Of a stretch of 64,000 nucleotides of DNA, positions 43,926 to 48,505 are shown one piece after another. Under the pieces are notes generated by a model. That model worked only from the letters and a program-made list of their open reading frames with translations, searched no databases and had not been told where the DNA came from. Position 1 is the stretch's first letter. Each line of letters opens with the position of its first letter. Origin of the DNA: Caulobacter vibrioides (GTDB lineage Bacteria; Pseudomonadota; Alphaproteobacteria; Caulobacterales; Caulobacteraceae); assembly GCF_002310375.3 (NCBI RefSeq), contig NZ_CP023315.3, forward strand, positions 310,001 through 374,000, written 5' to 3'. Made by a program: the position numbers and the translations under genes.

Positions 43926-43949
43926 CGGCGGTCCTTGCCAGGGCCGCCG
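43926..43949 (+). terminator. Hairpin after the carotenoid oxygenase gene
   Basis: CGGCGG pairs with CCGCCG and CCT with AGG around TGCC, 6 bases after the stop. No T-run follows, so it may only partly reduce read-through into the TetR gene. Confidence 0.4.
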
Positions 43950-43995
43950 GGTTGCGCCTATCCGGGGGGGAGCTTCATCAAGGCGGGCCCCCCTC

Positions 43996-44706
43996 ATGAC
44001 CGCAACCAAGTCCCGCGCCCGCGCCGGCGGACGGGGTCGCCCGTCCAAGGCCAAGGGTCTGGACCTGAAGGAAACCATCCTCGACGCGGCCGAGGGACTG
44101 TTTGCGCGTCACGGCTTCTATGGCGTCACCACCCGCCAGGTGGCGGCCGAGGCCGGCGTCGACACCGCCCTGATCCACTACTATTTCGGAGCCAAGCGCG
44201 AACTGTTCGACGCGGTGTTCCTGCGTCGCGCCGAGATCCTCAACCAGGCGCGCGAGGCCTCCATGAACGCCTATGTGAAGGCCAATGCGGGCGCGATGAC
44301 CGTCGAGGGCGTCATCGAGGCCTTCATCGATCCGCTGCTGCGGATCTCGCAGGATGGCGGCCAAGGCTGGAAGAGCTATTTCGTCTTGGTGGCGCAGGTG
44401 AACAACACCCCGGCGTGGGGCGGCGAGACCATGACTCGCTTCTTCGATCCCGTGGTCCACCAGCTTGTCGAGACGCTCAAGTCGGTGCGGCCCGAGGCGG
44501 CCTATCGTGACCTTTACTGGTGCTACCAGTTTCTCACCGGCTCGATGATGCTGACCCTTTCGGAAACGGGACGGATCGACTCCCTGTCGGAAGGCGAATG
44601 CCATTCCAGCGATCTTGAAGCCGTCCGCCAGCGCCTGTTCGCCTATTGCGCTGCGGGCTTCGAGGCCGTGATCGCCAAGCAGAACAAGGCCTTGGCCGGC
44701 GCCTGA
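43996..44706 (+). CDS. TetR family transcriptional regulator
   Basis: Protein of 236 residues. A basic N-terminal tail precedes the TetR helix-turn-helix (LDAAEGLFARHGFYGVTTRQ, then VAAEAGVDTALIHYYFGAKR, about residues 28-70), followed by a helical ligand-binding domain. TetR repressors of this layout respond to small hydrophobic molecules. It lies between the carotenoid oxygenase and the TonB receptor genes, and a perfect palindrome lies between it and the receptor gene, so it is the obvious candidate regulator of the island. Confidence 0.92.
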   Translation: MTATKSRARAGGRGRPSKAKGLDLKETILDAAEGLFARHGFYGVTTRQVAAEAGVDTALIHYYFGAKRELFDAVFLRRAEILNQAREASMNAYVKANAGAMTVEGVIEAFIDPLLRISQDGGQGWKSYFVLVAQVNNTPAWGGETMTRFFDPVVHQLVETLKSVRPEAAYRDLYWCYQFLTGSMMLTLSETGRIDSLSEGECHSSDLEAVRQRLFAYCAAGFEAVIAKQNKALAGA

Positions 44707-44724
44707 TCCGTCACACGTTTCGCA

Positions 44725-44746
44725 TTTTTCATCACTTGATGAAAAA
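44725..44746. promoter_or_regulatory. Perfect palindrome upstream of the TonB receptor gene
   Basis: TTTTTCATCA and TGATGAAAAA are perfect 10-base complements around CT. It is 133 bases before the receptor ATG, suited to a TetR operator; a half-site TTCATCA is also seen at 43974-43980 before the TetR gene. An alternative is a terminator of the TetR gene. Confidence 0.6.
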
Positions 44747-44879
44747 GGGCTGGCGTCCCGCGCCGGTTCGGGTGATGGTGAACGCAATTCGCTGTTCGAT
44801 GAATTGGCGGAACTCCGAGTACGCGTCCGCGAAAGACGGATCTGGCTCGGAAGGGCGGAACACTAGGGAGGGGAAACCC

Positions 44880-47120
44880 ATGACTTCGATGTGGAAGGCC
44901 GCGCTGCTGGCAGGCGCTGCGTGGAGCACGATCGCCGGCGCTGCGTCGGCTCAGCAGGCCCCGGCCGCTGACAACTCGGTTTCGGTCGACGAGGTGACGG
45001 TCACCGCGCGTCGTCGCGAGGAAAATCTCAAGGACGTGCCCGTCGCCGTCTCGGCCTTCTCGGCCGAGAAGCTTGAGCGTTCGGGCGGTACGGACATCAC
45101 CGTCCTGTCGCAGACCACCCCGAACATCACCGTGCAAACCGCCCGTGGTTCGAACTCGACCCTGATCAGCTACATCCGCGGCGTGGGCCAGCAGGATCCG
45201 CTGTGGGGCTACGAGCCTGGCGTCGGCCTCTATGTCGACGACGTCTACATCTATCGCCCGCAAGGCGCGGTGCTCGACATCTTCGACGTCGAGCGGATCG
45301 AAGTGCTGCGCGGCCCCCAGGGCACGCTCTACGGCCGCAACACTATCGGTGGCGCGATCAAGTACGTGACCAAGCGCCTCGGCGACGAAGCCAGCGCCAA
45401 GATCAAGGGCGCGTACGGCAGCTACAACCAGACCGACGTCCTGGTCTCGGGCCAGACCCCGGTCGGCGGCGGCCTGTCGGTCGGCGGCTCCTACGCGCTC
45501 TACAAGCGTGACGGCTATGGCTCGAACCTGACCACCGGCGCCGAGCACTACAACAAGGACGTCGAGGCCTTCCGTCTCAGCGCCGAGTACCAGCCGACCG
45601 AGGACCTGTTCTTCCGCCTCGCCTATGACAAGGTCGTCGACGACTCCAACGCCCGCCACGGTCACCGTGAACTGCCGGCCCTGGTCGGCGGCTATCAGGT
45701 GTTGGACGTCTATGACACTCAGGCCGGTCTGGGCGACAAGAACCACGTGATGACCAAGGGCGTGTCGCTGAGCGCTCAGTGGAACGCGACCGACACGGTC
45801 ACCCTCAAGTCGATCACCGCCAGCCGTCGCGGTCACACCGACACCGTCATCGACTTCGACGGCACGCCGCTGCCGACGCTGGACGTGCCGGCCACCTATG
45901 ACGACCGCTCGTTCTCGCAGGAACTGCAGGCCGTCTATTCGGACGAGAACGTCCAGGGCGTCTTCGGCCTCTACTACATGAACAGCCAGGCCTCGGGCGA
46001 GTTCGACACCATCGCCGGCAACCTCGGCGTGGCTATCGCCAACGGCGGCAAGGTCAACACCCAGAGCTTCGCGGCGTTCTTCGACTTCAGCGCCAACTTC
46101 ACCGACAAGTTCAAGGTCTCGCTGGGCGCCCGCGCCACCCGCGACGCCAAGCGCGCCAATGTCTATCGCTTCTTCTATCTCGGCGCGACGCGCACGCCCT
46201 ACCAGGCCGGCACGCCCCGTCCGATCCTGCAGACGCGCACCAACTACAACGCCGAGAAGACCTTCGAGCAGTTCACGCCGCGCATCTCGGCCTCGTATGA
46301 CCTGAACGACGACCTGACGACCTATGTCTCATTCTCGAAGGGCTACAAGTCGGGCGGCTGGGACATGCGCGGCGACGCGTTCATCACCCCGCAGACGGTC
46401 AACGGCTACCGGCCCGAGGTCGTGAAGACCTACGAAGCGGGCCTGAAGGGCTACATGTTCGACCGCCGGGTCTCGTTCTCGTCGGCCGCCTTCCTGTCCA
46501 AGTACACCGACCAGCAGGTCACGACCCAGGTCGTGGTGCCCTCGGGCATCGCCAGCTCGGTCGACAACGCCGGCGCCTCGACCCTGTACGGCGTCGAGTT
46601 CGAAGCCAACGCCAAGCTGAGCGCGAACCTGTCGGCCAATGTCGCCCTGGGCTACATCCACGCCGAGTACGACACCTTCAGCCGCTTCGTGCCGGCCGGC
46701 GCGCCCAACCCGCTGAACCCGTCGACGACCCTGGCCACCGGCCAGGTCATCAACGTCGCGGATCTGTACGGCTTCCAGAACACGCCGGAATGGACGGGCA
46801 ATGTCAGCCTGACCTGGCGCGGCCAACTGGCGGGCGGTGATCTGGCGATCACGCCGATGGTCAGCTACCGCGACGCCTACCAGCAGTTCGAGCAGCCCCT
46901 GCCGCTGCTGGACCAGAAGGCCTTCACCCTGGTGGACCTGACGGCCCAGTGGACCGCTCCGGGCGGCCGCTACAAGCTGGCCCTGACCGGCAAGAACCTG
47001 ACCAACGAGAAGTACCGCACCGGCGGCTACAACTTCGGGGTTCCGACCTACAACAACGCGGTGATCGGCTTCTATGGTCCGCCGCGCACTGTGGCCGCTT
47101 CGATCGAGGTGGCGTTCTAA
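44880..47120 (+). CDS. TonB-dependent outer-membrane receptor
   Basis: Outer-membrane transporter of 746 residues: signal peptide (about 1-24, cleavage after ASA), TonB box region (VDEVTVTARRREENLKDVPV), plug domain (about 50-165, IRGVGQQDPLWGYEPGVGLY) and a 22-strand barrel ending in the outer-membrane signature SIEVAF. It belongs to the group used in Caulobacter and sphingomonads for uptake of plant and aromatic compounds rather than obvious siderophore receptors. The ATG follows GGGAGGGGAAACCC. Its neighbours suggest the ligand is the substrate or product of the carotenoid oxygenase. Confidence 0.94.
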   Translation: MTSMWKAALLAGAAWSTIAGAASAQQAPAADNSVSVDEVTVTARRREENLKDVPVAVSAFSAEKLERSGGTDITVLSQTTPNITVQTARGSNSTLISYIRGVGQQDPLWGYEPGVGLYVDDVYIYRPQGAVLDIFDVERIEVLRGPQGTLYGRNTIGGAIKYVTKRLGDEASAKIKGAYGSYNQTDVLVSGQTPVGGGLSVGGSYALYKRDGYGSNLTTGAEHYNKDVEAFRLSAEYQPTEDLFFRLAYDKVVDDSNARHGHRELPALVGGYQVLDVYDTQAGLGDKNHVMTKGVSLSAQWNATDTVTLKSITASRRGHTDTVIDFDGTPLPTLDVPATYDDRSFSQELQAVYSDENVQGVFGLYYMNSQASGEFDTIAGNLGVAIANGGKVNTQSFAAFFDFSANFTDKFKVSLGARATRDAKRANVYRFFYLGATRTPYQAGTPRPILQTRTNYNAEKTFEQFTPRISASYDLNDDLTTYVSFSKGYKSGGWDMRGDAFITPQTVNGYRPEVVKTYEAGLKGYMFDRRVSFSSAAFLSKYTDQQVTTQVVVPSGIASSVDNAGASTLYGVEFEANAKLSANLSANVALGYIHAEYDTFSRFVPAGAPNPLNPSTTLATGQVINVADLYGFQNTPEWTGNVSLTWRGQLAGGDLAITPMVSYRDAYQQFEQPLPLLDQKAFTLVDLTAQWTAPGGRYKLALTGKNLTNEKYRTGGYNFGVPTYNNAVIGFYGPPRTVAASIEVAF

Positions 47121-47138: not shown

Positions 47139-47173
47139 GGGCGGGACTTGCTGCAACAGGTCCCGCCCTTTTT
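47139..47173 (+). terminator. Rho-independent terminator after the TonB receptor gene
   Basis: Perfect 9-base stem GGGCGGGAC/GTCCCGCCC, a 12-base loop and five Ts directly after it. It lies 18 bases beyond the receptor stop and before the MFS gene. Confidence 0.85.
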
Positions 47174-47203: not shown

Positions 47204-48505
47204 ATGAGCGAGGACGTGAACAAGGCCGAAACGGCCGGGCGGGGCGGCCGCTACCGCTACGTGGTGCTGGCCATGCTGATCCTGGCTTACACCTTCAACT
47301 TCCTGGACCGGCAGATCCTTGGAATCCTCGCCGGGTCGATCAAGGCCGAGTTGCACCTGACCGACACCCAGCTGGGCCTGATGGGCGGGGTGGCCTTCGC
47401 GGCGCTGTACACCACGCTGGGCGTACCGCTGGCCTGGCTGGCCGACCGTGTCAGCCGCACCTGGATCATGACCGTGGCCCTGACCGTGTGGAGCGGTTTC
47501 ACCGTCGCCTGCGGCCTGGCGGGCGGATTCTGGAGTCTGTTCCTGGCGCGCATGGGCGTCGGCGTCGGCGAGGCGGGGGGCGTGGCGCCGGCCTATTCGC
47601 TGATCGCGGACTATTTCCCCAAGGAGCAGCGCGCCCGGGCGCTGGCGGTCTATTCGTTCGGCATTCCTCTGGGGACGGCTCTGGGCGTGCTGTTTGGCGG
47701 CCTGATCGCGACCTATGTCGACTGGCGCTTCGCCTTCATCGCCGTGGGTCTGGCCGGCGTGCTGCTGGCCCCGATCTTCAAATGGGTGGTCAAGGATCCG
47801 GTGCGCGGCGGCCTTGATCGCGCGCCGGGCGAGGTCGCGCCCGCCGAGCCGCCCAAGGCGCCGGCGTTCGGTCAGGTGCTGGCCACCGTCATGCCCAAGC
47901 CCAGCTTCTGGTTGCTGTCGTTCGGCGCGGCCTGCTCGTCGATCTGCGGCTATGGCGTCGCGTTCTGGCTGCCGACCTTCTTCCAGCGCAGCTTCGGACT
48001 CTCGCTGACCGACCGCGCGCTCTATTACAGCGCCCTGTCGCTGATCGGCGGCGTGGCGGGCATCTGGCTGGGCGGCGTTCTGGCCGACCGCTTCGGCGCC
48101 AAGAACAAGGCCGCCTACGCCCTGGCGCCGGCCATCTGCTTCCTGGTGGCTCTGCCGTGCTTCCTGCTGGCGATGAACGTCCAGTCGATGGTCGTGGCCT
48201 TCCTGCTGTTCCTGATCCCGACGGGGCTGAACCTGGCGTGGCTAGGTCCGGTGGTCGCCGCCGTCCAGCACCTGGCGCCGCCGTCGATGCGGACCACCAC
48301 CTCGGCCCTCTTCCTGCTGATCAACAACCTGCTGGGCCTGGCCGTGGGGCTCTGGTTCTTCGGCTATGTGTCGGACCTGCTCACGCCGCGCTACGGCGCG
48401 GAGTCGATGCGCTATGCGCTCTACTACGGGCTTGGCTTCTACGTTGTGGCCGCTGTCCTGCTGATCATCGCCTCGCGCCGCCTGCAGAAGGACTGGGCCG
48501 AATAG
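47204..48505 (+). CDS. Major facilitator superfamily transporter
   Basis: Inner-membrane transporter of 433 residues with 12 predicted helices. The MFS signature between helices 2 and 3 is AWLADRVSRTWIM, and GVGEAGGVAPAYSLIADYFP near residues 114-133 is typical of the spinster/hexuronate-like subgroup. The ATG follows GAGGAGGG. It may carry the compound taken up by the receptor across the inner membrane; that link is inference from position only. Confidence 0.92.
   Translation: MSEDVNKAETAGRGGRYRYVVLAMLILAYTFNFLDRQILGILAGSIKAELHLTDTQLGLMGGVAFAALYTTLGVPLAWLADRVSRTWIMTVALTVWSGFTVACGLAGGFWSLFLARMGVGVGEAGGVAPAYSLIADYFPKEQRARALAVYSFGIPLGTALGVLFGGLIATYVDWRFAFIAVGLAGVLLAPIFKWVVKDPVRGGLDRAPGEVAPAEPPKAPAFGQVLATVMPKPSFWLLSFGAACSSICGYGVAFWLPTFFQRSFGLSLTDRALYYSALSLIGGVAGIWLGGVLADRFGAKNKAAYALAPAICFLVALPCFLLAMNVQSMVVAFLLFLIPTGLNLAWLGPVVAAVQHLAPPSMRTTTSALFLLINNLLGLAVGLWFFGYVSDLLTPRYGAESMRYALYYGLGFYVVAAVLLIIASRRLQKDWAE

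Follow-up and report, generated by a model that had tools for sequence, protein, structure and literature searches.

A 22-bp AT-rich inverted repeat (O1), located between a tetR gene and a gene for a TonB-dependent receptor in Caulobacter vibrioides, is very probably the operator of the adjacent TetR regulator, as judged by sequence comparison. In the overall explanation that we favor, to which we assign a probability of roughly 0.6, TetR dimers would flank the receptor promoter, occupying O1 beside the -35 box as well as a second site (O2) that spans the start site, and the receptor gene would stay blocked by bound TetR until a ligand releases the dimers. With O1 and O2 at a near-constant helical phase, the bound dimers would cooperate. 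The same repressor would also bind one site before sco (scoA, 3-oxoacid CoA-transferase) and one before bdh (3-hydroxybutyrate dehydrogenase), and receptor synthesis would thereby be coordinated with the catabolism of 3-hydroxybutyrate and acetoacetate.

In the window, i.e. the entire 64,000-nt stretch of C. vibrioides DNA that was analyzed, TTTTTCATCACTTGATGAAAAA was found exactly at 44725-44746, where the initial annotation had described a perfect 22-base palindrome. The location and the two perfect 10-bp arms were confirmed, but the element is an inverted repeat of 10+2+10 build, with an asymmetric 2-bp center, CT, that is not self-complementary. It was also said to be distinct from its GC-rich surroundings, and indeed it is the sole inverted repeat in this 67% GC window whose arms reach 10 bp or more, with a spacer of at most 4 bp and an arm AT content of at least 70%, while 60 dinucleotide-preserving shuffles yielded none. 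Inverted repeats of any composition numbered 8 in the window, with some overlap among them, versus a shuffle mean of 0.7 and a maximum of 3. The O1 palindrome is real and exceeds chance expectation. No Rfam element was detected in 44600-44980 at the gathering score, and no further copy of TTCAYCANNTGRTGAA was present in the window when up to three mismatches were allowed. A genome scan for more copies, suggested earlier, returned one exact match to TTCAYCANNTGRTGAA in the 4.14-Mb genome, namely O1, and 18 more sites with two mismatches, as compared with 5 for the reversed control pattern. Most of these 18 are probably due to chance; 15 of them lie in a high-GC3 coding frame, which is a weak test, as O1 itself also falls in one. 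Two of the 18, before bdh and scoA, are singled out by AT-rich symmetric flanks.

As originally noted, O1 lies just after tetR, beginning 18 bases past the end of the stop codon (44706), and 133 bases before the receptor ATG (44880). DUF2306, DUF2141 and RPE65-type genes are found upstream, followed by tetR, O1, the TonB-dependent receptor, an MFS gene and sucC (Table 1). The receptor can be equated with CCNA_00338 of C. crescentus NA1000 because the two lengths given for that gene in the available passages of PMC3951458, where it was cut by 234 nt from 2475 to 2241 bp, match exactly, both being present here (44646-47120 and 44880-47120). Since a strong intrinsic terminator lies between the receptor and MFS genes, control of the latter by O1, and its co-expression with the receptor, are uncertain.

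Table 1. Coordinates of genes, sites and promoter elements in the window
Feature	Position	Strand	Basis or remark
Candidate tetR promoter, TTGCCA-N18-TATCCG	43935..43964	+	Inference; visible here and in many of 27 loci inspected
TTCATCA half-site before tetR	43974..43980	+	Probably chance; present in 3/61 loci
tetR (CCNA_00337-like), presumed regulator	43996..44706	+	TetR_N and TetR_C_30
O1, main operator candidate	44725..44746	.	Spans -61 to -40 when the start is placed according to the available part of PMC11005374
Candidate -35, CTGGCG	44750..44755	+	5' base at -36; exact in 23/25 short-spacing and 14/36 long-spacing loci
Candidate -10, TGATGG	44773..44778	+	By position only, 17 bp after -35; poor consensus match
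O2, weaker operator-like site, CAATTCGCTGTTCGATGAATTG	44785..44806	.	Spans inferred start (-1 to +21); recognizable in 60/61 loci
Inferred receptor transcription start	44786	+	94 nt before ATG; Table 2 of PMC11005374 (available part) mapped onto the sequence
TonB-dependent receptor, CCNA_00338 of C. crescentus	44880..47120	+	Gene lengths match available passages of PMC3951458
Intrinsic terminator after receptor gene	47139..47173	+	Terminator scan, RNA folding
MFS transporter gene	47204..48505	+	Domains; gene order conserved; read-through from receptor gene possible

One scan supplied 80 tetR-orthologue loci, of which 70 have the receptor gene downstream on the same strand; with the 10 others and 9 near-copies left out, 61 loci remained. 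O1 is kept in all 61 of these dereplicated loci, showing 0, 1, 2 and 3 mismatches to TTCAYCANNTGRTGAA in 36, 15, 8 and 2 of them, respectively. It has the build of a local TetR operator, an inverted repeat within roughly 16-22 bp that is located at a promoter next to tetR, and is conserved together with the tetR orthologue (61/61 loci, 0-3 mismatches). The recognition-helix stretch VDTALIHYYF is identical in every sequence listed for these 61 loci, which comprised the top five variants of each group. In a search independent of tetR, TTTCATCANNTGATGAAA had a single match in each of 25 Caulobacter genomes out of 75 (0/75 for the reversed control), every time before a receptor homologue; 24 of these matches are beside tetR, and the remaining one is at a contig end. 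At the family level, WTTCACCANNTGGTGARW was found in 13 of 199 genomes, 12 of which have it at the tetR/receptor locus.

The lone family-scan match away from tetR (L146/L199), which was set aside, precedes a pair of AbiEi/AbiEii-like genes; two O1-like palindromes 67 bp apart are found at the 5' end of that pair (L199:5769-5857, genome G161), and probably represent its own autoregulatory site.

With its position 18 bp past the tetR stop codon and the ability of the RNA at 44715-44760 to fold (-14 kcal/mol, z -2.5), O1 could in principle be the intrinsic terminator of tetR. However, its distance to the receptor is stable at 121-172 bp, as opposed to -43 to 5101 bp from the tetR stop (61 loci), and in the 8 of 61 loci where more than 100 bp separate it from tetR (584 in L068, 1334 in L083 and 5101 in L077) it is still 126-160 bp before the receptor. 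Moreover, the stem is AT-rich and is not followed by a T-run, and no terminator was called at O1 by a consensus scan, unlike at 47139-47173. Thus neither a GC-rich stem with a T-run nor a fixed location at a gene 3' end was found for O1, and we discarded the terminator reading, which the initial annotation had named as a refutation of its proposal, as exceedingly improbable. Because O1 keeps its distance to the receptor where tetR is as far as 5.1 kb away, it is best viewed as a promoter operator. The earlier proposal that O1 is the best operator candidate for this TetR is backed by its conservation at the locus, its position at the receptor promoter, and its staying with the receptor when tetR is distant.

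Repeat-like, GC-rich inserts roughly 100 bp long lie between the tetR stop and O1 in L039, L041 and L053 (and in L040 and L047), and none between O1 and the receptor. In the receptor-less loci L090, L101, L103, L104, L108 and L109, several share a TTGCGTGCAGTGCAGCA-like stretch followed by the TTTTGGGCGTTTCCTCCC motif after tetR, an arrangement reminiscent of phasin promoters.

The placement of O1 and O2 relative to the promoter depends on the start site. Table 2 of PMC11005374, in the part available, lists CCNA_00338 as '-94 to +60' under 'gfp fusion (relative to TSS)', from which we infer that transcription begins 94 nt ahead of the ATG. By this start site, the -35 box closely follows O1, and +1 falls within O2. 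According to the available text of PMC4287350, 93% of RpoD motifs start at -34 to -37; a generic sigma-70 scan called no promoter at the receptor promoter. Where CTGGCG is exact, it is found 34-37 bp before O2, while its gap to O1 shifts from 3-4 to 23-25 bp; therefore O2 is fixed relative to the promoter, and it is O1 that moved.

We predict, with good though lesser confidence than for O1, that O2 is a second operator. Its matrix score is above zero in 51 of 61 loci and below zero in 10; the site is weak in Caulobacter and absent in L089, and in part of Phenylobacterium it reads TAATTCACCANNTGGTGAGTTT, the same code as O1. O2 occurs at the start of the inferred mRNA, and good folding was seen for some of its Phenylobacterium versions, so that it might act as a hairpin at the 5' end of the receptor transcript instead of as a protein site. 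This is improbable: the O2 stretch in the window folds no better than its shuffles (z +1.1), and the O1 code shared by O2 in part of Phenylobacterium argues against an RNA role.

TetR could act as an activator, binding O1 just upstream of the weak -35 box, and the location of the O1 center at about -50, the poor promoter match, and helical phasing, which is compatible with RNA polymerase contact as well, would all fit. On the other hand, the inferred start site is covered by O2, and TetR-family proteins are mostly repressors, so that we give activation little credence and retain repression as the preferred reading.

The spacing between O1 and O2 is 59-61 bp in 25 loci (including L089, which has no real O2), 80-84 bp in 35 and 92 bp in one. 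These classes, defined post hoc with the data already in view, accommodate all 61 loci, versus a mean of 10.5 and a maximum of 18 for shuffled stretches; second sites initially mispicked in L062, L089 and L098 were replaced by an O1-anchored search. The steps are close to whole helical turns, which suggests that bound dimers may act together. It should be noted that just three label changes on the tetR tree explain all spacing groups, so only a handful of events underlie the phasing steps (about 21 and 10-11 bp). If true, whole-turn spacing is what a protein bridge or a short DNA loop around RNA polymerase would need, and helical phasing in a TetR system could readily be tested on the natural series of 60, 82 and 92 bp. 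In long-spacing loci (e.g. L066, L078, L198), a conserved TGTGGCGC is found directly ahead of O1; it is missing from the short-spacing class.

Regarding tetR itself, an autoregulatory site, which is frequent but not obligatory, did not emerge: an operator-like site at p<=0.05 precedes tetR in only 6 of 61 loci. The TTCATCA half-site that the initial annotation had pointed out before tetR is present, but is kept in only three C. vibrioides-like loci, and because of this lack of conservation autoregulation through it is doubtful and was dropped from consideration.

Beyond the receptor locus, promoter-like sites are found in the same genome before bdh (TIGR01963, 402.6 bits vs. a cut-off of 307.05) and before scoA (TIGR02429, 276.3 bits vs. 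128.5). A matrix built only from the 58 best tetR-receptor intergenic sites (in some Phenylobacterium loci this site is O2) was run over the 250 nt ahead of sco and bdh at a threshold of p<=0.01, using the best copy per genome in hand-chosen genomes (61 + 28, with G105 in both) and leaving out G233, G155, and the sco of G167 and G182. The sco site was detected in 9/9 short-spacing Caulobacter, 13/13 other Caulobacter (with G103), 10/14 Phenylobacterium and 12/12 Brevundimonas-like genomes, and the bdh site in 9/9, 10/13, 1/13 and 11/12, respectively; other genera with tetR gave 0/5 for sco and 1/4 for bdh. Altogether, the four main tetR-containing groups yielded 44/48 for sco vs. 2/26 in tetR-minus genomes, and 31/47 for bdh vs. 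0/27, where tetR-minus means no match at E<=1e-70, so that more distant homologues may exist there. One such genome, G138, has a good sco site. The control genes scored 1/24 (sucC) and 0/21 (RPE65).

There are also exceptions in the opposite direction: the sco site at p<=0.01 is absent from Phenylobacterium G257, G221 (p 0.043), G218 and G153, all with tetR and receptor. Conversely, three Phenylobacterium genomes (G185, G230, G255), which have tetR without a receptor or O1 in 6.5 kb, kept sites ending in TTGATGAATTT before sco. In genera with a divergent tetR, the receptor site is unlike the sco site, and the sites do not co-vary in step.

These data could also mean that O1 serves the adjacent TetR only, and that a different regulator recognizing a similar palindrome, e.g. 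a ketone-body regulator, acts at the sco and bdh sites and perhaps at O2. The bdh and sco sites, AATTCATCNNNNGATGAATT, are closer to O2 (AATTC...GAATT) than to O1, and the AATTC...GAATT pattern with up to three mismatches matched at O2, before bdh and sco and at two further positions of the C. vibrioides genome, but not at O1; the exceptions in Phenylobacterium and in other tetR-containing genera point in the same direction. However, the Brevundimonas-like sco site is O1-like (TTATTCATCACCTGATGAAAGA in G180), O2 has the O1 code (TTCACCANNTGGTGA) in part of Phenylobacterium, few or no sco and bdh sites turn up in tetR-minus genomes, and in three genomes with no receptor beside tetR the sco site is retained. 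We consider a separate regulator the less likely reading, though a live rival. A putative single TetR regulon uniting outer-membrane uptake and ketone-body catabolism (sco, bdh) is the reading we favor, with somewhat less assurance than the operator role of O2; the distribution of its sites is mixed.

In this respect, bdh with an operator-like site is found about 5.5 kb upstream of tetR in the Caulobacter genomes G009, G013, G024 and G084, physically linking parts of the putative regulon. Another site, AATTCAACGTTCGATGAATT, with one mismatch to the bdh/sco pattern (L211:1501-1520, genome positions 3192877-3192896), is located about 83 bp before an ORF (L211:1603-2991) which, by its translation, looks like a cytochrome P450 and may be a further regulon member.

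In 16 loci (L179-L192, L195, L196) of Brevundimonas-like and other genera, tetR and the receptor gene are divergently oriented, and one site, typically TTATTCAGCGTTCGATGATTTT, is found near the receptor start. RPE65, DUF2306 or DUF2141 genes are close by in most of the 16. Their helix-turn-helix carries REV(A/S) in 14 of 16 loci versus RQVA in the listed sequences of the 61 loci, while VDTAL(I/V)HYYF is common to both sets. We did not draw on the tetR paralogues (42-54% identical, 20 loci) as evidence; a receptor homologue is present in 6 of these 20 stretches. Some of them carry related yet different palindromes, e.g. TTTCAACANNTGTTGAAA in L166, and variants such as TTTCAACAGATGTTGAAA occur near their own tetR paralogue genes in L166 (2126-2147) and other paralogue loci, hinting at a subfamily recognition code.

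What is new here is that sco and bdh are preceded by sites of the same type as the receptor operator, albeit with exceptions. Together with O2, they suggest a small regulon that goes beyond a single local site. Among the matches listed in the literature searched, none described such an operator or regulon by title or abstract opening, and those listed for TTTCATCA with TGATGAAA included none about O1; PMC13273656 was dropped, as its available part concerns an IclR repressor. CCNA_00338 is matched in PMC12559287, PMC3951458 and PMC11005374, CCNA_00337 in PMC3951458, and CCNA_00336 in PMC5324124 and PMC8224329. In the available passages, SisA down-regulates CCNA_00338 in reporters and carbon depletion raises its mRNA (PMC12559287), while RusT expression lowers it 2.2-fold (PMC11005374); those passages name neither a transcriptional regulator nor a substrate for it. 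This receptor of a model bacterium is under small-RNA control and is induced by starvation; for it, the present analysis names a likely repressor and two candidate operators, and the proposed catabolic co-targets sco and bdh point to its substrate class. The simplest guess, given these co-targets, is that it imports a compound degraded through acetoacetate. The full combination of a TetR regulon coupling uptake to ketone-body catabolism, a two-operator distance evolving by whole helical turns (60, 82, 92 bp), and a receptor importing 3-hydroxybutyrate oligomers or an acetoacetate-yielding compound is offered only tentatively, and we would not expect all of it to hold.

Among solved structures, TetR is nearest to NicR and to the TetR-like chain 2fbq, which we take to be PsrA. 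NicR (chain 5fhp), the nearest by sequence (E 3.7e-18), shares the TetR fold family, but the similarity is distant, extending over residues 26-225, and its genes are different; NicR is a catabolic repressor responding to another ligand. PsrA, a TetR-family regulator of fatty-acid degradation, is the best NCBIfam match (NF053516), yet the score of 86.8 bits falls far below the curated cut-off of 300 bits for PsrA membership, and the TetR described here would target the receptor, sco and bdh. In the available part of PMC5343134, PsrA regulons belong to lipid catabolism, and the TetR groups treated (FabR, FadP, LiuQ, PsrA, RutR) include none at the tetR/receptor locus. The HutC, HypR and NagR regulons, covered in the same part of that source, involve other regulator families and other compounds, but in each of them, as proposed here, one regulator serves both TonB-dependent uptake and catabolism.
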